Part shown: piece after piece, positions 702-16,093 of the stretch
Position numbering within the stretch: position 1 is the first letter of the stretch
How the letters are laid out: each line of letters starts with the position of its first letter
Assembly (NCBI GenBank): GCA_013519935.1
Contig: JACDUA010000052.1
Span: 1 to 32,497 of the forward strand
Direction of reading: 5' to 3'
Length of the DNA: 32,497 nucleotides
Source: Ectothiorhodospiraceae bacterium WFHF3C12
GTDB taxonomy: Bacteria > Pseudomonadota > Gammaproteobacteria > Nitrococcales > Nitrococcaceae
Translations under genes and position numbers: made by a program
Notes under the pieces: model-generated
What the model saw: only the letters and a program-made list of their open reading frames with translations
Databases searched by the model: none
What the model was told of the DNA's origin: nothing

Positions 702-2271
702 TCAGCTCTTCGAGCGCTACGGCGCGGGCTACAAGTGGCTGGCCACCGCCACGGTCATGCTGGGCACGTTGTCCATGGTGATGGCCACGACCATCATCAA
801 CGTCGCCATCCCCGAGATCCGGGGCACCTTCGGCCTGGGCCAGGACCAGGTGCAGTGGCTGTCCACGGGCTACCTGGCGGCCATGACGGCCACCATGCTG
901 GCCAACGCCTGGTGCGTGGAGGCGCTGGGCCAGCGGCGGACGTACATGACCGCCATGATGATCTTCGTCTTCTGCAGCTTTCTCGGTGGCCTGAGCCCCA
1001 ACGCGGAGTTGCTGACCCTGGCGCGGGTGGGGCAGGGGGCTATGGCGGGCATCATCCAGCCGCTGGCGGCCATCACCATCTTCCAGGTCTTCCCGCCCAA
1101 CGAGCGGGGCCGGGGCATGGGCATCTACGGCCTGGGGGTGATCCTGGGACCCGCCATCGGCCCGACCCTGGGCGGCGTGCTGGTGGACCTGTTCAACTGG
1201 CGCGCCGTGTTCTTCCTGGCGCCGCCATTCTGCGTTCTGGGCTTTCTCATGGCCACGGCCTTCATGCCCCGGCGCATGTCCGAGGACCCGCCGCCGCGAT
1301 TCGATTTCTTCGGCTTCGGGCTGCTGTGCGCGGCCCTTGTCATGATCCTCTGGGGCCTGTCCAATGGGCCACGCCACGGATGGGACAGCGTCGCCGTGGA
1401 GGCCGCGCTCGCCGGTGGCGTGCTGTCCGGTTTCGGCTTCGTCCTGCGCTCCTTGCTGGCGGATCATCCCGTGCTGAATCTGCGGGTATTCACCAATCCC
1501 GGCTTCCTTTCCGGTTCGCTGGTGGCCTTTCTGCTGGGCGCGGGGCTTTTCGGGTCGACCTATCTGGTCCCGGTGTTCGTCCAGGAACTGCTGGGCTATA
1601 CGGCGACGCAGAGTGGTCTCGTGCTCATGCCGGCCGGTCTGGCCATGGCGGCGGTCTTCCCGCCGGTCGGCCATCTGACCGACCGGGTCATGCCGCAGCG
1701 GCTGGTCATGCTGGGGTTGGCGTTGTTCGCCTTCTCGTCCGCGTTGCTGGCCGGGGTCGACATGAATACCGCGTTCTGGACCCTGGCGATATGGATTCTC
1801 ATAGGCCGTGTCGGCCTGGGTTTGATTCTGCCGCCGGTAACGGCGGGCTCCCTGGACCTGTTGCCCGGCGGGCTGTTGCCCCACGGCTCCGGCGCGATCA
1901 ACTTCTCACGGCAGCTGGGCGGGGCCTTCGGGGTCAACCTGTTGGCGATTTTTCTGGACGAGCGCACGCGCGTCCATACCCGCGAGCTCATTCAGGCCCA
2001 GACCCCGGGTACGCCGGCGGCCCGTGAAGCCACGTCGGAGCTGCTCAAGGTCCTGGAGCGCGCGGGGGTGCCGGACGTCCACCTGGGACCGGGTGCGCTT
2101 CACGTGATTGGCCGGGGCATCCACGGCCAGGGCTATGTCATGGGCTTCCAGGACAGCTTCATGTTGCTGGCGGCCGTGTTCGTGCTGGCGCTGGTCCCGG
2201 CCCTGGTGATGGGGCGCTATGTGCGCCGACACCGCCACGAGGGGCAACCCTACGCGGCGGTTTCTGAGTGA
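688..2271 (+). CDS. DHA2-family MFS exporter (EmrB/QacA type)
   Basis: A 527-residue inner-membrane drug:H+ antiporter of the 14-helix DHA2 subfamily. Hydrophobic segments run from about residue 20 to the C-terminus. The antiporter motif C is clear in GLGVILGPAIGPTLGG (about residues 149-164), and the helix-1 region VMATTIINVAIPEIRG is typical of EmrB. Length matches the family (about 500-530). The ATG lies inside the end of the adaptor gene, so the two are co-translated; the partner outer-membrane channel, if in the operon, would lie upstream of the window. A pantothenate-type reductase follows 25 bases later. The exported compound is unknown. Confidence 0.94.
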   Translation: MSEVDQLFERYGAGYKWLATATVMLGTLSMVMATTIINVAIPEIRGTFGLGQDQVQWLSTGYLAAMTATMLANAWCVEALGQRRTYMTAMMIFVFCSFLGGLSPNAELLTLARVGQGAMAGIIQPLAAITIFQVFPPNERGRGMGIYGLGVILGPAIGPTLGGVLVDLFNWRAVFFLAPPFCVLGFLMATAFMPRRMSEDPPPRFDFFGFGLLCAALVMILWGLSNGPRHGWDSVAVEAALAGGVLSGFGFVLRSLLADHPVLNLRVFTNPGFLSGSLVAFLLGAGLFGSTYLVPVFVQELLGYTATQSGLVLMPAGLAMAAVFPPVGHLTDRVMPQRLVMLGLALFAFSSALLAGVDMNTAFWTLAIWILIGRVGLGLILPPVTAGSLDLLPGGLLPHGSGAINFSRQLGGAFGVNLLAIFLDERTRVHTRELIQAQTPGTPAAREATSELLKVLERAGVPDVHLGPGALHVIGRGIHGQGYVMGFQDSFMLLAAVFVLALVPALVMGRYVRRHRHEGQPYAAVSE

Positions 2272-2296
2272 CGAGCAGGAGTCGAGGAGATCGATC

Positions 2297-3238
2297 ATGA
2301 GTGAAAATCCCAGCGTGCTGGTGCTCGGCGCCGGCGCCATCGGCGCCTTTTACGGCGCCATCCTGAACCGCGCCGGTTGCGAGGTCTCCGTGGTGCTGCG
2401 CTCCGAGTACGAGGCCGTCAACGAAAACGGCTTCGAAATCAGCAGCGAGCTCGGCGATCTCTCCTTCCGGCCCGCCGCCGTGTACCGCAGCGCGGCGGAA
2501 TGTCCCACGCCCCCGGACTACCTGGTGGTGGGCCTGAAGGTGGTGGACGGCATCGATCGGGTCTCGGCCATGCGTCCGGCCGTTGGCCCCGATACGACCA
2601 TCGTGTTGATCGAAAACGGCATCGACATCGAGCCGGAGATCGCCGAGGCGTTTCCGGATAACCGGCTGATCAGCGCGCTGGCCTATGTGGCGGTCAGCCG
2701 CGTGGCGCCGGGACGGGTGGTGCACAAAGCCTACGGCCAACTCGTCTTCGGCAATTTCCCGCGAGGCGTCGATGGGGTGACCGAGGCCTTCGGCGAGCTG
2801 CTGCGCAGTGGCGGCGTGAAGACCAAGGTGACGGATACCGTGGTCCGCGAGCGCTGGCGCAAGTGCGTCTGGAACGGCGCCTTCAATCCCGCCTCCGTGG
2901 TGGCGGGTGGGGCCGACACCCGCACCATGCTGGATGTCGCCGACGGCGAGGCGTTCATGGCCGCGTTGATGAACGAGATCATCGCGGTGGCCGCCGCGGA
3001 TGGCCATGAGTTCCCCGCGGAAATGGTGCAGACGAGCCTGGAGCAGACGCGCAAGATGCCCGCCTACCGCAACAGCATGGCGCTGGACTACCTGCACGGC
3101 CGGCCGCTGGAGCTCGAGGCCATGCTGGGCAACGTGATCCGCCTCGCTCGCCGGCTGAACGTGGATGTGCCGCATCTGGAGACGGTGTATACGCTGGCGC
3201 GGATGCTGCTGGCGGAGAAGCCGCCGCTGGACGAATAA
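2297..3238 (+). CDS. 2-dehydropantoate 2-reductase family protein (ApbA/PanE)
   Basis: A 313-residue cytoplasmic NADPH-dependent reductase. The ATG at 2297 is preceded by a GAGGAG ribosome site (2284-2289); an in-frame ATG at 2219 lies inside the upstream gene and is less likely. The Rossmann motif VLVLGAGAIGAFYGA is at the N-terminus. The C-terminal half has the family Lys-x3-Asn block (RERWRKCVWNGAFNPAS) and the Glu-containing RPLELEAMLGNVIRLA segment near the end. Known family members reduce ketopantoate to pantoate for CoA synthesis, but many paralogues act on other 2-oxo acids. Its position behind an EmrAB-type exporter, not next to panB or panC, makes a non-pantothenate substrate quite possible. 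Confidence 0.88.
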   Translation: MSENPSVLVLGAGAIGAFYGAILNRAGCEVSVVLRSEYEAVNENGFEISSELGDLSFRPAAVYRSAAECPTPPDYLVVGLKVVDGIDRVSAMRPAVGPDTTIVLIENGIDIEPEIAEAFPDNRLISALAYVAVSRVAPGRVVHKAYGQLVFGNFPRGVDGVTEAFGELLRSGGVKTKVTDTVVRERWRKCVWNGAFNPASVVAGGADTRTMLDVADGEAFMAALMNEIIAVAAADGHEFPAEMVQTSLEQTRKMPAYRNSMALDYLHGRPLELEAMLGNVIRLARRLNVDVPHLETVYTLARMLLAEKPPLDE

Positions 3239-3249
3239 GGGTCTTTTCG

Positions 3250-3660
3250 GACCTCACGCCAAGGCGCAAAGGGCGCGAACGCAAGGCGGGGTGGAGGCCA
3301 TTGGTGGGGGCGGCTGCCCGGCATGCCGTGGCGGCACCTGCAGGAGCGCCGCCAGGCGCGATTGCCTCGGTCTGGCGGGGCTGACCGAGGCTCGCGCCGC
3401 TCCTGCAGGTGGCTTCGATGGTCTGGTGTAGGAGCGGCCCCTGGCCGCGAACGGTGGCTTCGTTCCGGTAAGGCTGTTTTCGCCCGCCTGGCGGCGGCCG
3501 AAACCACAGTTGAGGTTAGGATCTGCCGATCGGCACAGGCGATCCTTGATGCGTTGCCGGATGGCAAGCCCATTCGACGTACGCGCGAACCTGTTCGCGG
3601 CCAGGGGCCGCTCCTACGGCCCCGAGGCTGCTCCTTGTAGCTCGGATCCTGGTTGTCCAG
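3250..3660. repeat. Direct repeat unit A, interrupted by a REP doublet
   Basis: The first copy of the island unit. It matches units B and C from GACCTCACGCC through the palindromic segment ending near CTCGCGCCGCTCCTGCAG (about 3418). It is then interrupted by about 200 bases carrying a 25-bp perfect inverted repeat. It resumes at the aldolase-end fragment (3631-3660, 30 bases identical to the aldolase 3' end). The A-to-B spacing is 461 bases against 296 for B to C, in line with the inserted segment. Confidence 0.85.
3428..3617. repeat. REP doublet with perfect 25-bp inverted repeats
   Basis: Bases 3428-3452 and 3593-3617 are exact reverse complements (25 of 25). Each arm begins with GTAGGAGCGGC and is itself a hairpin (GCGGCC-CCT-GGCCGC). 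Two palindromic REP sequences facing each other around about 140 bases is the layout of a REPIN or BIME-type non-autonomous element. It sits within unit A and accounts for the extra length of that unit. Confidence 0.8.
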
Positions 3661-3673
3661 TGCACGCGTGGAT

Positions 3674-3700
3674 GTCGGATGGCAAGGCCATCCGACCTAC
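3674..3700. repeat. Small palindromic repeat (TCGGATGGC-AAG-GCCATCCGA)
   Basis: A 9-bp perfect palindrome with a three-base loop, followed by CCTAC. A second, slightly diverged copy is at about 3971-3996 (TCGGATGGCAAGGTCGTCCGA), and a more degenerate one at about 3555-3580. It forms the linker between repeat units A and B. Confidence 0.7.
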
Positions 3701-3710
3701 ATGCGTTTTG

Positions 3711-3921
3711 GACCTCACGCCAAGGCGCAAAGGACGCGAACGCAAAGCGGGGTGGAGGCCAATGGTGGGGGCGGCTGCCCGGCATGCCATGGCGGACCTG
3801 TAGGAGCCCCGCAAGGCGCGATTGCCTCGGCCTGGCGGGGCTGACCGCGGCTCGCGCCGCTCCTACGGCCCCCGGGCTACTCCTTGTAGCTCGGATCCTG
3901 GTTGTCCAGCATCCGCAGCAG
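3711..3921. repeat. Direct repeat unit B with relic of the aldolase 3' end
   Basis: The second copy. It is nearly identical to unit C with an offset of 296-297 bases (one single-base indel). Bases 3877-3921 match the last 45 bases of the aldolase gene (4174-4218), including its stop codon. The identity ends exactly where the linker ACGTAGGTCGG begins. Confidence 0.88.
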
Positions 3922-3998
3922 ACGTAGGTCGGCACCGGCGTAGCCGGCGCCGACGGTGCATGCGTGGATGTCGGATGGCAAGGTCGTCCGACCTACGT
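3922..3998. repeat. REP-type linker with 11-bp perfect terminal inverted repeats
   Basis: ACGTAGGTCGG (3922-3932) and CCGACCTACGT (3988-3998) are exact reverse complements. Inside are a near-perfect palindrome GTCGGCACCGGC-GTA-GCCGGCGCCGAC spanning about 3928-3954 and the diverged TCGGATGGC hairpin. It separates units B and C and resembles a second kind of REP doublet, different in sequence from the one at 3428-3617. Confidence 0.7.
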
Positions 3999-4006
3999 GC
4001 GTTTTG

Positions 4007-4218
4007 GACCTCACGCCAAGGCGCAAAGGACGCGAACGCAAGGCGGGGTGGAGGCCAATGGTGGGGGCGGCTGCCCGGCATACCATGGCGGCACCTGAAG
4101 GAGCGCCGCCAGGCGCGATTGCCTCGGCCTGGCGGGGCTGATCGCGGCTCGCGCCGCTCCTGCGGCCCCCGGGCTACTCCTTGTAGCTCGGATCCTGGTT
4201 GTCCAGCATCCGCAGCAG
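4007..4218. repeat. Direct repeat unit C, running into the aldolase gene
   Basis: The third copy of the unit. Its last 45 bases (4174-4218) are the genuine 3' end of the aldolase gene, so the repeat unit crosses from non-coding into coding sequence. This fixes the likely origin: the unit at the aldolase end was copied outward to make A and B. Confidence 0.87.
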
Positions 4219-4944
4219 CGCCGGCCAGGCGAACTGGCCCACCTGGGGCAGGCCCTGGGACTGCTCCAGGGTCGTGTCGATGGCCTGCTGGCTGGGCATG
4301 TGCAGCTCCTTGCCGGCCGTCAGGGCCTGGACCTGGATCTCGCAGGCGCGGACCAGGAAGTGGCTCCAGATAAAGGCCTCGGCGACATTGTTGCCGATGG
4401 TCAGCGTGCCGTGGTTGCGAAGCATCAGGATGTTCTTCTCGCCCAGGTCGTTGATGAGCCGCTCCCGCTCTTCGAGGTTCAGGGCGACGCCCTCGTACTC
4501 GTGCCAGGCGATGTGGCCGCGCACGAGCATCGCGGTCTGGCTCAGCGGCATCAGCCCCTCTTCCTGTGCTGAGACGGCCACCCCCGGCGCGTAGTGCAGG
4601 TGGATGACAGCACCGGCGTCCTCGCGGGCCATGTGCACCGCGCTGTGGATGGTGAAGCCGGCGGGATTGATCTTCTTGCTCTGGTCCGGGTCCACGACGT
4701 TGCCGTCCTGGTCCACCTTCACCAGGGAAGACGCGGTGATCTCGCTGAACAGGCGGCCGTACGGATTGATCAGGAAGTGGTGATCCGGTCCGGGAACCCG
4801 CGCCGAGAGATGGGTGAAAATCAGGTCATCCCAGCCGTAATGCGCAACGAGGCGGTAGCAGGCGGCTAGGTCCACGCGGACCTGCCATTCGTCCTGGGTC
4901 ATCTCCCCAACCCCGGGGGCGAGGTCTGCAGTGCGCTGGCTCAT
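4174..4944 (-). CDS. Class II aldolase/adducin family protein
   Basis: A 256-residue cytoplasmic protein of the class II aldolase/adducin fold, which includes L-fuculose-phosphate aldolase. The ATG at 4944 is chosen because a GGAGGAG ribosome site lies just upstream (4951-4957 region). An in-frame longer start at 5070 would run through an AT-rich putative control region. Metal-binding histidines are visible: HLHYAP in the first half and RNHGTLTIG in the second, with HLSAR near the N-terminus. The C-terminal WPALLRMLDNQDPSYKE is typical of the subgroup annotated simply as class II aldolase/adducin family, whose substrates are mostly unknown. Its 3' end is duplicated in the adjacent repeat island. 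Confidence 0.9.
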   Translation of the reverse strand: MSQRTADLAPGVGEMTQDEWQVRVDLAACYRLVAHYGWDDLIFTHLSARVPGPDHHFLINPYGRLFSEITASSLVKVDQDGNVVDPDQSKKINPAGFTIHSAVHMAREDAGAVIHLHYAPGVAVSAQEEGLMPLSQTAMLVRGHIAWHEYEGVALNLEERERLINDLGEKNILMLRNHGTLTIGNNVAEAFIWSHFLVRACEIQVQALTAGKELHMPSQQAIDTTLEQSQGLPQVGQFAWPALLRMLDNQDPSYKE

Positions 4945-5170: not shown

Positions 5171-6157
5171 TCACAAGGTCAGAATGATCTTGCCCAGGTG
5201 CTCGTTGGCGGCCATGGCCTTGTGGGCGCTGACGGCGTCGTCGAAAGCGAAACGCCGGGAGATGCAGGGCCGGAGCCGGCCCGACGTGAACATGGCCGCC
5301 AGGCGATTGTTGAAGACCTGGGCAACGCGGATGCGTTCCTCCAGTGGCTGGGCGCGCATGGTCATGGCCTTGATGCCGCGCCGGCCCATGAGCAGCGCCC
5401 CGAGGTTGATCTCGCCCTTGCGGCCCCCCATCAGCCCGACGATGATCGCCCGGCCCTCGGTCCGCAGGGTGGCGATAGTGTCGTTCAGCCGGTCGCCGGC
5501 GACCATCTCCACGGCCACGTTGATACCGCCCGTGGCCCCGGTGACGGCTTCGGCCACACCGTCCTCGCCGTCGATGGCGTCCAGGTCCAGCTCCAGGCCG
5601 AGGGCCTTGGCCTGGTCGAGCCGCTCGCGGGAACGGCTGGTTCCCACCACACGGGCGCCGGCCGCCCGGATCAGCTGCGCCGCAGCCATGCCCACGCCGG
5701 AGGTCACCGGCCGGACCATCGCCCATTCGCCGGCCTGAAGGCCGCCTTCGATGAACAGGGCCCGGTAGGCGGTGAGGAAGTCCTCGGGCAGGGCGGCGGC
5801 GTCGGCCGCGTCGATGCCTTCGGGGATGCCGATCAGCTCCCGCTCGGTGGTGACGATGTACTCGGCATAGGCGGCACCCGGAACCAGACCCATGACGCTG
5901 TCACCGACTTGATGGCCGAGCACCTTGTCGCCAACCGCGTCGACCACGCCGGCGTATTCCAGCCCGGGGATGCGCGGGTCGAAGCCCGGCGGGGCGGGGT
6001 AGAGGCCCTGGACCTGAAGCAGGTCGGCGCGATTGATGCCGACGGAGCTCACGCGCACGCGGACCTCGCCGGGTCCGGGAGTCGGCGTCTCGGTTTCGGC
6101 AAGTTGCATTTTGGGACTTTTTTGGTCGCTATCTTCCGCGATCAGCCAGGCTTTCAT
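5171..6157 (-). CDS. Zinc-free quinone oxidoreductase-like MDR protein (PIG3 type)
   Basis: A 328-residue NAD(P)H-dependent medium-chain dehydrogenase/reductase. The N-terminal GroES-like half shows the family stretch VGINRADLLQVQGLYPAPPG (about residues 38-57), which is typical of the PIG3/quinone oxidoreductase group. The nucleotide-binding half follows (GVGMAAAQLIRAAGARVVG). The zinc-binding cysteine cluster of alcohol dehydrogenases is not seen. The start ATG at 6157 has GGGGAG about 9 bases upstream. It likely reduces quinones or alpha,beta-unsaturated carbonyls; the exact substrate is unknown. It lies upstream of, and on the same strand as, the aldolase, but 226 bases and a hairpin separate them. 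Confidence 0.9.
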   Translation of the reverse strand: MKAWLIAEDSDQKSPKMQLAETETPTPGPGEVRVRVSSVGINRADLLQVQGLYPAPPGFDPRIPGLEYAGVVDAVGDKVLGHQVGDSVMGLVPGAAYAEYIVTTERELIGIPEGIDAADAAALPEDFLTAYRALFIEGGLQAGEWAMVRPVTSGVGMAAAQLIRAAGARVVGTSRSRERLDQAKALGLELDLDAIDGEDGVAEAVTGATGGINVAVEMVAGDRLNDTIATLRTEGRAIIVGLMGGRKGEINLGALLMGRRGIKAMTMRAQPLEERIRVAQVFNNRLAAMFTSGRLRPCISRRFAFDDAVSAHKAMAANEHLGKIILTL

Positions 6158-6243
6158 CAGTCAGTACTCCCCTCGTTATTTGTGGGGTTCGGAGCCGATA
6201 CCGTATCGGCTGCGCCCCGCCCTGGAAAGAGTCAGAGGTGATC

Positions 6244-7673: not shown

Positions 7674-7825
7674 GCCGCGGTGGCCTCGGCCATGCCCCCT
7701 TGGCCTTGTCCGCGGGGGGCTTCAAAGGCCGGAGATTCCGCGCGGCAAGGCGACGCGATGGGTAGCCGGCGGCGGCGTCGATCCGCCGCCACGCCCGGCC
7801 CCATTTCGATCAGGGGCAGTCCGTG

Positions 7826-7861
7826 ACCCGGCTTGCTGCGTCGCAACGTAACAAGCCGGGT
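7826..7861. terminator. 10-bp hairpin between convergent genes
   Basis: ACCCGGCTTG (7826-7835) and CAAGCCGGGT (7852-7861) are perfect reverse complements around a 16-base loop. The hairpin lies in the 262-base gap between the plus-strand small gene and the minus-strand CoA transferase gene, which end towards each other. This suits a bidirectional transcription stop. There is no clear T-tract, so confidence is moderate. The rest of the gap shows nothing else recognisable. Confidence 0.45.
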
Positions 7862-7935: not shown

Positions 7936-9147
7936 TCAGCCAATCGCGCCGTCCTCGCGCAGGCTGCGAAGGTCTTCGCTGGTCAGGCCAAGCAGGCCAC
8001 CGAGCACGGTATCGGTGTCCTGTCCGAGGGACGGCGCCGCGTCGACCTCGCCAACGGATGTGCCCTGAAAATGAATGGGATTGGCAACGCCCGGCACGCT
8101 GGTACCGTCGGGCCGCGGATATTCGCGTTGCATGCCCCGGGCCTGGACCTGGGGGTCGGCGAAGACTTCGCCCACGTCGTTGATGGGCCCGCAGGGCACC
8201 CCCACGGCCTGCAGGGCTTCCAGCCATTCAGCGCGGTCGCGGGCGCGAAGCCGCTCCTCGATCCTGGCTATCAGCGCGTCCCGGTTGGCGACGCGCTGGG
8301 CGTTGGTGGCGTAGTCCGGGTGCTCGGCCAACGTCTCCAGGCCCACGACATCGCAGAAGCGGCGGAACTGGTCATCGTTGCCAACGGCCAGCACCAGGTG
8401 GCCGTCGGCGGCGGGAAAGGCCTGGTAGGGCACGATGTTCGGGTGGCTGTTGCCGAGCCGGCCGGGGACGTTGCCGGACACCAGGTAGTTCATCGCCTGG
8501 TTGGCCAGGGTGGCGACCTGGACGTCCAGCAGGGACAGGTCGATATGCTCGCCCTCGCCGGTACGGTCCCGGCGCCGCAGGGCCGCCAGCACGGCCGTGG
8601 AAGCGTACATGCCCGTGAAGACGTCCGTCAGCGCGACGCCAACCTTCAGCGGTCCCCCGCCAGGCGCCTCGTCCGGCTGGCCGGTCACGCTCATCAGGCC
8701 CCCCATGGCCTGGATGAGCAGATCGTAGCCGGCGCGTTCCCGGTAGGGACCCGTCTGGCCGAAACCGGTAATGGAGCAGTAGATCAGCCCGGAGTTGACC
8801 GCCCGAAGGCTGTCGTAGTCCAGCCCGTAGCGCGCCAGGCCGCCGGCCTTGAAATTTTCCAGCAGGACGTCCGACTGCGCGGCGAGATCGCGAATGAGCG
8901 CCTGGCCGCGCGCGGAGCCGATATCCACGGCCACGGAGCGTTTGCCCCGATTGCAGCTGTGGAAATAGGCGGCTTCGCCGGTGGGAAGGAAGGGCGGGCC
9001 CCAGCCGCGGGTGTCGTCACCCCGGCCGGGCCGCTCGATCTTGATAACCTCGGCACCGAGGTCGGCAAGCAACTGGCCGGCCCAGGGGCCGGCCAGTATT
9101 CGGCTCATGTCCAGCACGCGGATGCCGTCGAGGCAGGAATCCTTCAT
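7936..9147 (-). CDS. Family III CoA-transferase (CaiB/BaiF type)
   Basis: A 403-residue cytoplasmic CoA-transferase that moves CoA between acyl-CoA and a free carboxylate. The N-terminus VLDMSRILAGPWAGQLLADL and the segment IERPGRGDDTRGWGPPFL are hallmark family III sequences. The catalytic aspartate is Asp175 in KVGVALTDVFTGMYA. It lies 23 bases downstream of etfA and appears to be the third gene of an etfB-etfA-CoA transferase operon. A glutaryl-CoA dehydrogenase is encoded in the same island, so a succinyl-CoA:glutarate CoA-transferase role (as in the SUGCT/C7orf10 branch) is a reasonable inference. The substrate is not proven by sequence alone. Confidence 0.92.
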   Translation of the reverse strand: MKDSCLDGIRVLDMSRILAGPWAGQLLADLGAEVIKIERPGRGDDTRGWGPPFLPTGEAAYFHSCNRGKRSVAVDIGSARGQALIRDLAAQSDVLLENFKAGGLARYGLDYDSLRAVNSGLIYCSITGFGQTGPYRERAGYDLLIQAMGGLMSVTGQPDEAPGGGPLKVGVALTDVFTGMYASTAVLAALRRRDRTGEGEHIDLSLLDVQVATLANQAMNYLVSGNVPGRLGNSHPNIVPYQAFPAADGHLVLAVGNDDQFRRFCDVVGLETLAEHPDYATNAQRVANRDALIARIEERLRARDRAEWLEALQAVGVPCGPINDVGEVFADPQVQARGMQREYPRPDGTSVPGVANPIHFQGTSVGEVDAAPSLGQDTDTVLGGLLGLTSEDLRSLREDGAIG

Positions 9148-9170
9148 ACCGCTGTGCCGGCCGGGCCGTC

Positions 9171-10112
9171 TCAGTCGAGCTTGCCGACTGCTTCGGTCAG
9201 CTCGGGGACCGCCTGGAACAGGTCGGCCACCAGACCGTAATCGGCCACGTCGAAGATCGGTGCCTCTTCGTCCTTGTTGATGGCGACGATGACCTTGCTG
9301 CCCTCCATGCCGGCCAGGTGCTGGATGGCGCCGGAGATGCCGCAGGCGATGTACAGGTCAGGCGCGACGATCTTGCCCGTCTGGCCGACCTGGTAATCGT
9401 TGGGCACGAAGCCGGCATCCACGGCGGCGCGGGAGGCGCCGATGGCCGCGTTGAGCTTGTCGGCCAGCTTCTCCAGGATGGCGAAGTTCTCGCCGCTGCC
9501 CATGCCGCGGCCGCCCGAGACGACGATCTTGGCGCTGGTCAGCTCGGGGCGCTCGGACTCGGTCAGCTCCTGGCCGACGAACTCCACGCGCGGCGAGACG
9601 GATTCGGCATCGACGTTCTCCACCTCGCCGCTGCCACCCTCGGCGGCTGCGCGCTCAAAGGCAGTGCCACGAACCGTGATGACCTTGATGGCGTCGGAGG
9701 ATTTCACCGTGGCCAGGGCGTTGCCCGCATAGATCGGGCGCACGAAAGTGTCCTCGGATTCCACCTTGGTGATGTCCGAAACCTGCTGGACGTCGAGCCG
9801 TGCGGCGACACGGGGCATGAGGTTCTTGCCGAACGTGCTGGCCGGCGCCAGGACATGGCTGTAGTCCTTGCCCTCGCGCGCGATCAGCGGCGCCAGGTAT
9901 TCGGCGACCGGATGCTCGTAGCTGTCGTCGTCGGCGAGCTTGACCTTCTTGACGCCGGCGACCTTGGCGGCCTGGTCGGCCACGGCCTGGCAGCCCTTGC
10001 CGGCCACCAGGACGTGAATGTCGTCGCCGATCTGGCTGGCGGCGTTGATGGTCGTCAGCGTGCCACCCGCCAGGGCGCTGTTGTCGTGTTCTGCGATGAC
10101 GAGAATGGCCAT
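9171..10112 (-). CDS. etfA: Electron transfer flavoprotein subunit alpha
   Basis: A 313-residue FAD-binding subunit of the soluble ETF heterodimer. ETF takes electrons from acyl-CoA dehydrogenases and passes them to ETF-quinone oxidoreductase. The C-terminal FAD domain is unmistakable: [20 protein letters not shown] followed by [20 protein letters not shown] and [20 protein letters not shown]. The length is standard. The start ATG directly abuts the etfB stop (10113-10115), so the two subunits are co-translated. Partners are in the window: two acyl-CoA dehydrogenases and ETF-QO. Confidence 0.97.
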
Positions 10113-10862
10113 TTAAATCACCTTCGCTTCGTTGTGGAGCTTCTCCACCAGCTCCTGGACGCTCTCGACCTTGACGCCGCCCTTGCGCTTCGGCGGCTCC
10201 TCGACCTTTACCGTGCTCAGCCGGTGCTCGACGCTGACGCCGAGCTCGTCGGGGGTCATGGTGTCCAGCGGCTTCTTCTTGGCCTTCATGATGTTCGGCA
10301 GCTTGGCGTAGCGCGGCTCATTGAGGCGCAGGTCGGTGCTGACCACCGCGGGCAGCTGGACGGAGAGCGTTTCGAGGCCGCCGTCGATCTCCCGGGTCAC
10401 CTTGAGCTTGCCGTCCGCCGGCTCGATCACCGAGGCGAACATGGCCTGGGGCCAGTCGAGCAGCTCGGCCAGCATCTGGCCGGTCTGGTTCGCATCGTCG
10501 TCGATGGCCTGCTTGCCGAGGATCACCAGATCCGGCTGCTCCTTCTCGACCACGCCCTTGAGCAGCTTGGCCACGGTGAGGGATTCCAGCTCCGTCTCGG
10601 TCTCGACCAGGATGCCGCGGTCACCGCCCATGGCGAGGCCGGTCCGTATGGTCTCCTGGGACTGGGTGGCGCCGATGGAGACCACCACGACTTCCTCCAC
10701 CGCGCCGGATTCCTTCATCCGGACGGCTTCTTCAACCGCGATCTCATCGAACGGGTTCATGGACATCTTGACGTTGGCCGTCTCGACGCCCGACCCGTCT
10801 GCCTTGACGCGGATGCGGACGTTGTAGTCCACGACCCGCTTCACAGGAACCAGTACTTTCAT
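10113..10862 (-). CDS. etfB: Electron transfer flavoprotein subunit beta
   Basis: A 249-residue AMP-binding subunit of ETF. The N-terminal [20 protein letters not shown] and the region [20 protein letters not shown] (which includes the recognition loop for dehydrogenases) are characteristic. It is the first gene of etfB-etfA-CoA transferase. A well-formed sigma70 promoter lies upstream on the minus strand (10933-10961), with an operator-like 19-mer between promoter and gene (10900-10918) that matches sites near iclR and the TAXI gene. This suggests that this ETF is a dedicated copy induced with the catabolic genes. Confidence 0.97.
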
Positions 10863-14105: not shown

Positions 14106-15262
14106 TACTGGGCCTCGCGGATCATGTTGCGCGCGACGACGATCTGCTGGATCTGGGTCGTGCCCTCGTAGATACGGAACAGCCGCACATCGCGATAGAA
14201 ACGCTCCACGGCGTACTCGTTGATGTAACCCGCGCCGCCGTGGATCTGCACCGCGCGGTCGGCCACCCGGCCCACCATCTCGGCGCAGTAGAGCTTGGCG
14301 CAGGAGGCGAGCATGCTGACGTTCTCTTCGGCGTCCTTGCGCCGGGCGGCGTCCATCACCATGCAGCGGGCGGCGTAGGCCTCGGCCTTGCTGTCGGCCA
14401 GCATGGCCTGAATGAGCTCATGCTCGGCGATGGGCTTGCCGAACTGCTTGCGGTCCATGGCGTAGCGCAGGGCGTCGTCGATAAGGCGCTCGGCAACGCC
14501 GACGCAGACGGCGGAGATGTGCAGCCGGCCGCGGTCGAGCACCTTCATGGCGGTCTTGAAGCCCTGGCCTTCCTTCTCCGGGCCGCCGATCATGTTCTGC
14601 GCGGGGACGCGGCAGTCCTCGAAGATGATGTCGCAGGTGTGCGCGCCCTGCTGGCCCATTTTCTTGTCGGGCTTGCCGCGGTGGATGCCGGGGGTGTCGC
14701 CGTCCACCAGGAACGCCGAGATGCCGCCGGCGCCCTTGTTCTCGGGGTTGGTACGGGCCATGACGGTGAACACGCCGGCCTCGGGCCCGTTGGTGATGTA
14801 GCGCTTGGTGCCGTTGAGCACGTAATGGTCGCCGTCACGGATGGCCGTGGTACGCAGGGAAGCGGCGTCGGAGCCGACGTCCGGCTCGGTGAGGCAGAAC
14901 GAGCCGATCAGCTCGCCGGTGGCCATCTTCGGGACATACTGCTGTTTCTGCTCGTCGGTGCCGTCGATGAGCACGCCCTGCGAGCCGATGCCGTTATTGG
15001 TGCCGAAGATGGAGCGGAAGGCGGGGGAGGTGTGGCCGATCTCGAAGGCGATCAGCGCCTCCTCCTCCATCGTCAGGCCCAGGCCGCCGTACTCCTCGGG
15101 GATGGACAGGCCGAACAGCCCCATGTCCTTCATCTCCTGGAGGATGTCCTCGGGGATCGCGTCCTCGCTGGCGACCTGCTCCTCGGCCGGAATCAGCCGT
15201 TCGCGGACGAAACGGCCAATGGTGTCGATAAGCTGGTTGATCGTTTCCTGATCTCTAATCAC
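14105..15262 (-). CDS. Acyl-CoA dehydrogenase
   Basis: A 385-residue FAD enzyme introducing the 2,3-double bond into an acyl-CoA and passing electrons to ETF. Family signatures are GSFCLTEPDVGSDAASLRTTA (FAD/substrate region) and the C-terminal catalytic glutamate in RIYEGTTQIQQIVVARNMI (Glu366). Length and order match the short/medium-chain ACAD fold. It is distinct from the glutaryl-CoA dehydrogenase at 19028, so two dehydrogenation steps are encoded. It follows iclR by 24 bases on the same strand and overlaps the ligase start by one base. It likely oxidises the ligase product, upstream of glutaryl-CoA. Confidence 0.95.
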   Translation of the reverse strand: MIRDQETINQLIDTIGRFVRERLIPAEEQVASEDAIPEDILQEMKDMGLFGLSIPEEYGGLGLTMEEEALIAFEIGHTSPAFRSIFGTNNGIGSQGVLIDGTDEQKQQYVPKMATGELIGSFCLTEPDVGSDAASLRTTAIRDGDHYVLNGTKRYITNGPEAGVFTVMARTNPENKGAGGISAFLVDGDTPGIHRGKPDKKMGQQGAHTCDIIFEDCRVPAQNMIGGPEKEGQGFKTAMKVLDRGRLHISAVCVGVAERLIDDALRYAMDRKQFGKPIAEHELIQAMLADSKAEAYAARCMVMDAARRKDAEENVSMLASCAKLYCAEMVGRVADRAVQIHGGAGYINEYAVERFYRDVRLFRIYEGTTQIQQIVVARNMIREAQ

Positions 15263-15286
15263 GATGACCCCCTGTGCGGTTTCCGC

Positions 15287-16093
15287 TCACATGCGGCTCA
15301 TGGCCGCCTGGACATTCTGTACAAGCTGTTTCAGCCGCGGCCCCAGCTCGGCATCGAGACGGTGCTCGGGGAGCAGGAAGGACGGGCCGCCGCAGTTGAA
15401 TCCGTATACATAGCCGTTCTCGTTCTGGACCAGCGGCACGCCGACGGCGTTGACGTCGCCGTCCCAGTCGCCGATGACCTTCACGTAGCCGTGCTCCATG
15501 TAATAGTCGCAGGCTTCCTCGATGGCGTCGCGCAGTTGCGGCCATTCCGGACCGGTGCGCTTCTCGATGTGCTGCATCAGGTATTCGCGCTCCCCCAGGG
15601 GCAGGGCGGCGAGAAAAGCCCGGCCCATGGCCGTCGTTGCAATGGGTATGCGCGAGCCGATATCCAGGCGCAGCGTCACGGCCCCGCTGCCGCGGCAGTT
15701 ATCCAGGTAGATCATGGACAGCCGCTCGCGGGCGCCCAGGGCCACGGCGGCGTTGGCCTCGTCGGCGAGCTCCTGCATCAGCGGGCGTGCCACCTGGCGG
15801 ATGCCGAAGGTGGACAGGGTCGCGTAGCCGAGCGCCAGGACGCCGGTGCCGAGCTGGTAGCGCTCGAGCCGTTCGGAGTAGGAGAGGTAGCCGAGCTTGG
15901 TCAGGGTGTAGGTCAGCCGCGTGACGGTGGGCTTGGGCAGCCCGGTGCGCCGGGCGATCTCCTGGTTACCCAGGAAGCCGTCCCCCGGCTTGAAGGCACG
16001 CAGCACCTCGAGCCCGCGTGACAGGGCCGTGACGAACTTGCGGTCCTTCGGTTCGTTTTCGTCCGTAAATGGATTCGATGCGCTCGCGCTCAC
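15287..16093 (-). CDS. IclR-family transcriptional regulator
   Basis: A 268-residue DNA-binding regulator. The N-terminal winged helix (about residues 20-85) contains FLGNQEIARRTGLPKPTVTRLTYTL, followed by the IclR effector domain with RLSMIYLDNCRGSG, IPIATTAMGRAFLAAL and a C-terminal VGVPLVQNENGYVYGFNCGG. I place the start at GTG 16093; a TTG at 16180 is possible in frame, but that stretch has no ribosome site and contains an operator-like sequence. Known relatives (PcaU, PobR, PcaR) control aromatic and dicarboxylate catabolism from divergent promoters, as here with paaH. A TATAAT box at 16210-16215 and palindromes at 16184 and 16121 suggest autoregulation. Confidence 0.93.
   Translation of the reverse strand: MSASASNPFTDENEPKDRKFVTALSRGLEVLRAFKPGDGFLGNQEIARRTGLPKPTVTRLTYTLTKLGYLSYSERLERYQLGTGVLALGYATLSTFGIRQVARPLMQELADEANAAVALGARERLSMIYLDNCRGSGAVTLRLDIGSRIPIATTAMGRAFLAALPLGEREYLMQHIEKRTGPEWPQLRDAIEEACDYYMEHGYVKVIGDWDGDVNAVGVPLVQNENGYVYGFNCGGPSFLLPEHRLDAELGPRLKQLVQNVQAAMSRM

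Follow-up and report, generated by a model that had tools for sequence, protein, structure and literature searches.

The spacer that separates convergent genes for ketopantoate reductase and a class II aldolase/adducin-family protein holds an ordered REPIN cluster, which most likely arose by a tandem duplication that had one of its endpoints in the aldolase gene. The stretch of DNA analysed, here called the window, is a whole contig of 32,497 bases from a 4.6 Mb genome represented by 168 contigs. The reductase–aldolase spacer is 935 bases long and contains three direct-repeat units, A, B and C, together with REP doublets of two types that we have named REPIN1 (GTAGGAGCG type) and REPIN2 (GTAGGTCGG type). 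The features are:

2219–3238, + strand: ketopantoate reductase (ApbA/PanE) gene, the convergent left neighbour, with Pfam ApbA and ApbA_C above the cut-off
3245–3334, + strand: leader of unit A, 95% identical to 3999–4095; strong copies are found only in this array
3335–3411: REPIN1 of unit A, a REP doublet and inverted repeat (arms 3335–3360 and 3386–3411) with matches elsewhere in the genome
3412–3606: further REP-type sequence inside unit A; its arms, 3428–3452 and 3593–3617, form a 25 nt perfect inverted repeat
3607–3660, + strand: end of unit A, comprising the REPIN1 edge and a shortened aldolase tail copy with 30 identical bases at 3631–3660
3661–3705: REPIN2 between A and B, right half only, with 41/45 positions matching 3957–4001
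3706–3921, + strand: unit B, comprising leader, REPIN1 and a tail copy at 3877–3921 with an intact stop codon
3922–4001: REPIN2 between B and C, with GTAGGTCGG at 3924 and CCGACCTAC at 3988
4002–4218, + strand: unit C, comprising leader, REPIN1 and the authentic aldolase 3′ end at 4174–4218
4174–4941, − strand: class II aldolase/adducin-family gene (Pfam Aldolase_II, 164 bits), the source of the copied tail

The start of the aldolase gene at 4941 was chosen here from an open reading frame that extends to 5070, and a further frame at 3877–4086 was dropped as spurious.

The original prediction described A, B and C as direct repeats, and repeats were located at 3245–3406, 3706–3867 and 4002–4163. 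Read in the + orientation, each unit is made up of a leader of approximately 90 bases, then REPIN1, then the end of the aldolase gene, and the period from B to C is 297 bases. The segments 3660–3921 and 3956–4218 share 95.4% identity, and the alignment of B with C has 12 differences in 262 columns, a likeness far beyond chance. The leader gave three matches with E < 1e-30, while the next best had an E value of 0.0025 over 26 bases. The start proposed for the repeat, 3250, lies about 5 bases inside it. When the three units were aligned they proved to be diverged direct repeats. Unit A is not continuous, as approximately 195 bases of REP-type sequence (roughly 3412–3606) that are absent from B and C interrupt it. 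Its tail copy ends at 3660, leaving out the final 15 bases of the 45, and the REPIN2 that follows is without its left half. REPIN2 is present between the units, yet there is none to the left of unit A.

The aldolase gene's final 45 bases (4174–4218) recur exactly at 3877–3921 in unit B, stop codon included, as had been claimed, and the uninterrupted identity of B and C extends to 55 bases, taking in the last 14 aldolase codons and the stop. Beyond 3921 and 4218 the sequences diverge at once (ACGTAGGTCGG and CGCCGGCCAGG, respectively), so the boundary is as sharp as it was said to be. Unit A carries 30 of the 45 bases (3631–3660), identical in all three units. However, the stop codon was not left in the spacer twice, as first thought: the triplet at 3628–3630 in unit A is CAG on the gene strand, and TAG is intact only in unit B and the gene itself. 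A search for the 30-mer that allowed up to three mismatches found three places in the 4.6 Mb assembly, all of them in this array, and a reversed control pattern found none. Of 369 genomes of the class, one, that of the window itself, contained a 33-base version of the tail. The view that the tail is an aldolase relic rather than a general repeat is therefore upheld.

The REP sequences, in contrast, are dispersed. When 3250–4300 was used to query the genome, at least 135 matches were returned, four of them inside the window (40 of 303 candidates scored), and among the matches listed outside the window none covers the first 78 bases of the query. REPIN1 and REPIN2 both have many matches elsewhere, at least 35 of which, whole or partial, are to the REPIN2 part (3922–4001). 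Seeds ending in GTAG or CTAC start at 3428, 3609, 3692, 3858, 3924 and 3988, and degenerate GCAG/CTGC seeds are found at 3340, 3398 and 4155. Four pieces were folded and compared with shuffled sequences. Three folded better (z −2.6, −5.7 and −6.3), including the DNA hairpin at 3330–3411 (z −6.3) and that of REPIN2 at 3922–4001 (z −2.6; 3 of 200 shuffles were as good), and 4089–4176 did not clearly do so (z −1.25). The array thus contains short GTAG-tagged palindromic elements that are arranged as inverted doublets and have dispersed copies in the genome, as in REPINs and GTAG REP clusters. At many REP2 elements, e.g. L083 19631, L084 12967 and L100 1997, CAG is found shortly before the GTAG tag. 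Among the 60 exact GTAGGTCGG elements in the sample, which are not independent of one another and include the window's three, 20 have CAG within the 8 bases preceding the tag, compared with 13.5% of random 8-mers. A possible reason is an insertion-site preference or a shared flank.

Six matches to Y1_Tnp (L069–L074) were found in the genome. Four of these (L069–L072) were scanned with the NCBIfam model for REP-associated tyrosine transposases. L070 and L071 exceeded the cut-off of 80 bits, and L069 (74.9) and L072 (57.8) fell below it, so the genome includes a RAYT transposase, as in REPIN/RAYT systems. Exact GTAGGAGCG and GTAGGTCGG were sought on both strands of the six loci of approximately 3.2 kb around the Y1_Tnp matches, and there were none. 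As no exact REP seed adjoins these matches, we do not claim a RAYT-driven pair. In this respect L070 and L071, which are RAYT-type but have no exact REP1 or REP2 seed within about 1.5 kb, differ from the RAYTs of Pseudomonas fluorescens SBW25, where clusters lie adjacent.

Other gene ends in the same genome have been copied. In 41 stretches (659,163 bases), mostly picked for their REP matches, we asked which gene ends recur no more than 3 kb away in DNA that had not been called as a gene. Genes were called by a simple GC3 composition rule, giving 497 after one spurious call was removed. Three cases were convincing, the window and two others:

L102 (G000:C111), 9679–10286: second case and the cleanest, at a glutathione S-transferase gene (9060–9710)
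L089 (G000:C112), 14883–15158: third case, a REP array after a DUF2835 gene (15149–15391)

The L102 segment is repeated head-to-tail with a period of 303 and 95.6% identity. It begins 32 nt inside the glutathione S-transferase gene, the stop codon has been copied, and the join is at a short GGAGG-type match. In L089, 98 bases that reach 10 nt into the DUF2835 gene, stop included, are repeated at a spacing of 178 with 96.9% identity, and the copy is followed by ACCGTAGGTCGG, with the join 3 bases from a GTAG. Convincing tail copies were found for 3 of 140 genes with a REP-type motif no more than 300 bases downstream and for 0 of 357 without one, a rough contrast, given how the stretches were picked and the genes called, and because the cases were judged by reading the match list.

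The remaining candidates were set aside. Inverted matches account for L079, L086 (four), L090, L094 and one of the two in L105; the other L105 match is a direct one and involves a hairpin repeat of the CCCCTCTCC type at a distance of 2.6 kb. Direct repeats at called gene starts in L078, L086, L087 and L093 are wholly or mostly dispersed, the L088 match is 25 bases at a gene start, and a match at 9008–9142 in L083 contains REP2 and lies at a doubtful gene start. In L076 the match is 20 nt inside a gene, its copies are 3.6 kb apart and 14 other stretches have matches to it, while a further L090 match is 32 bases shared by two gene ends. L083 (G000:C35) also contains a real 120-base repeat (7740–7858 and 6050–6168, 88%) whose copies are 1.7 kb apart and not in tandem; it stops 12 nt within an alpha/beta-hydrolase-like gene. 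None of the other stretches matched it, and a look at the surrounding DNA revealed no further copy of the gene.

We propose that REP doublets settled in a convergent-gene spacer whose ancestral length was perhaps 60 to 90 bases. Two head-to-tail duplications would then have followed, each of approximately 300 bases made up of REPIN2, leader, REPIN1 and the last 45 aldolase bases. With one endpoint in the gene, tail copies would be left in the spacer and the gene would stay intact at unit C. Later, parts of unit A, as well as the leftmost REPIN2, would have been lost or interrupted. The original prediction attributed the array to slippage or recombination between REP elements. The order, orientation and period of the units bear out its tandem nature, and a part for the REPs fits, since both doublets have matches elsewhere and one sits exactly between units. 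We infer the causal process, which was likely either misaligned replication or illegitimate recombination between short matching sequences, helped by hairpins; L102 shows tandem duplication from within a gene in its simplest form. REPIN2 may have been part of the duplicated segment and been lost at the left, or may have arrived at the join. Its presence between the units but not before them calls for either one more loss or an independent insertion. A short match may have served the window join, where the gene reads GCAGCAG and the REPIN2 at 19631 in L083 is preceded by CAGCAGAC. As far as the sequences go, the CAG data would fit a short match or a cut near CA alike.

An alternative is that a transposase made the copies, with RAYT/TnpA-REP acting at REPIN2 by its GTAG tag and joining REPIN2 and its flank to the aldolase tail. 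The genome does encode two proteins, L070 and L071, above the NCBIfam cut-off, and at two of the three loci the join lies 2–3 bases from a REP2-type GTAG (CAG/ACGTAGGTCGG in the window and AGC/ACCGTAGGTCGG in L089). Where REPs are dispersed, homology stops at their edges in any case. According to the accessible text of PMC8266576, the usual cut site is CT beside the REP, distant sites have also been observed and the Marinomonas enzyme also cuts at CA. CA is found 1 and 2 bases before the window and L089 joins, but the nearest upstream CT is 22 and 8 bases before them, respectively. Moreover, the L102 join resembles a plain tandem duplication at microhomology, flanking cargo of 200 bases is not described in the accessible text, and no exact REP1 or REP2 seed is near the Y1 transposase matches. 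We consider this explanation unlikely, and tandem duplication at short matches remains our preferred reading.

Repeats of around 300 bases are hard for short reads, and in a draft of 168 contigs an assembler might have multiplied a single unit. However, B is separated from C by 12 differences in 262 columns, A is more divergent, and the three are not alike in structure. A doubled assembly would not yield copies so different, and such an artefact is very unlikely. Ten of the 12 B–C differences fall in the REP parts and two in the leader, with none in the last 55 bases. Using approximate lengths, this is 10 of about 124 positions in the REP parts versus 2 of about 138 in the rest (Fisher p 0.015). 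Differences between 3661–3921 and 3957–4218 cluster in the REP palindromes, as if these had been swapped with other REPs or mutate faster. Mismatches in the tail region number 1 for B–C, 3 for A–B and 4 for A–C, and those in the leader 2, 3 and 4, respectively. In REPIN1 the same pairs have 5, 6 and 4, and A is not an outlier there. As the tail region and leader differ least between B and C, this suggests that A split off first and that B and C are the younger pair, though the numbers are small.

Relatives were identified by protein search and 29 loci were compared, some of them being the same place under two names (L022/L041 and L024/L042). The 59 relatives covered include none of the same genus, and the states before and between the duplications were therefore not seen. 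No related stretch was found in the plasmid collection searched. The same convergent gene pair was present in two distinct places in the relatives, L042 and L023, where the spacers are 62 and 60 bases, respectively, compared with 935 bases here. In L023 the reductase frame is broken, and when an earlier TGA is taken as its end, by eye, the spacer is 92 bases. By eye, the spacers of L042 (5727–5788) and L023 each resemble one strong hairpin, and the window spacer is without a terminator-like pattern.

The short hairpin spacer that these two relatives carry instead of an array might suggest that the tail copies persist because they serve a function, e.g. as decoy 3′ ends or in transcript protection. 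B and C have no differences in the last 55 bases and 12 in the other 207 columns, which also favours this. Nevertheless, the leader is nearly as conserved, the differences gathering in the REP parts, and unit A lacks the stop codon and 15 bases of the tail. No terminator or promoter pattern was found in 3100–4300, nor any Rfam match at the gathering score in the window. Retention for function is thus extremely improbable, and the tail copies in the spacer probably have none.

The direction of copying, from gene to spacer as predicted, is supported by the relatives. The aldolase ends ...MLDNQDPSYKE here, ...MLDRTQPSYKE in L022/L041, ...MLDRTQPDYKE in L024/L042 and ...LLDRKDPSYKD in L023; the L022 tail, ...IRMLDRTQPSYKE, is closely similar to that of the window's aldolase. 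C-termini differ more in more distant relatives. Because the nearest relatives share a closely similar C-terminus, we take unit C to be the original and the spacer copies to be derived from the aldolase gene; that the tail DNA does not occur as a general repeat also supports this. The reverse, that the repeat is older and the aldolase gained its tail and stop codon from it, would also leave identical bases in gene and array, but is contradicted by the C-termini alike at the protein level in L022, L023 and L024 (recurring as L041 and L042) and by a search of the class in which 368 further genomes did not yield a 33-base stretch of the DNA tail; we give it practically no credence.

The array is a known kind of repeat cluster. 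In the accessible text, Bertels and Rainey 2011 (PMC3116915) describe 16 ordered REPIN clusters in P. fluorescens SBW25 in which the tandem units comprise a flank, a REPIN and a shorter flank, usually with a short non-repeated stretch between units. Similarly, Di Nocera et al. 2013 (PMC3733652, accessible text) report that most large REP clusters hold tandemly reiterated elements plus flanking DNA. The window array resembles the SBW25 clusters in that leader and tail repeat together with REPIN1 in A, B and C, which places flanks on both sides of the REPIN within tandem units, and it is like the GTAG-tagged clusters of Di Nocera et al. in having tandem elements with flank. It differs from the SBW25 clusters in that the shorter flank (f2) is formed by the end of a protein gene, which is its special point, and in that the stretch between units, usually non-repeated in SBW25, is a dispersed REPIN of another family, present twice and shortened once. 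Copied gene ends find no mention in the accessible text of PMC3116915, PMC3733652 or PMC8266576, subscription literature lying outside the search.

No change is expected to the aldolase or the other genes themselves. REP clusters built from anonymous spacer DNA cannot show the direction or endpoint of a duplication, whereas a tail of known source reveals, for each one, which way it ran and where one of its ends lay. The three gene-tail loci in this one genome thus form a small set that bears on how ordered REPIN clusters form. It appears quite unlikely that REPIN amplification regularly captures the 3′ ends of neighbouring genes as a side effect, at joins dictated by the GTAG tag of a REP. If it did, gene-tail fossils beside REPs would preserve the sites and manner of REP cluster growth, and might bring to light RAYT-driven copying of flanking DNA.
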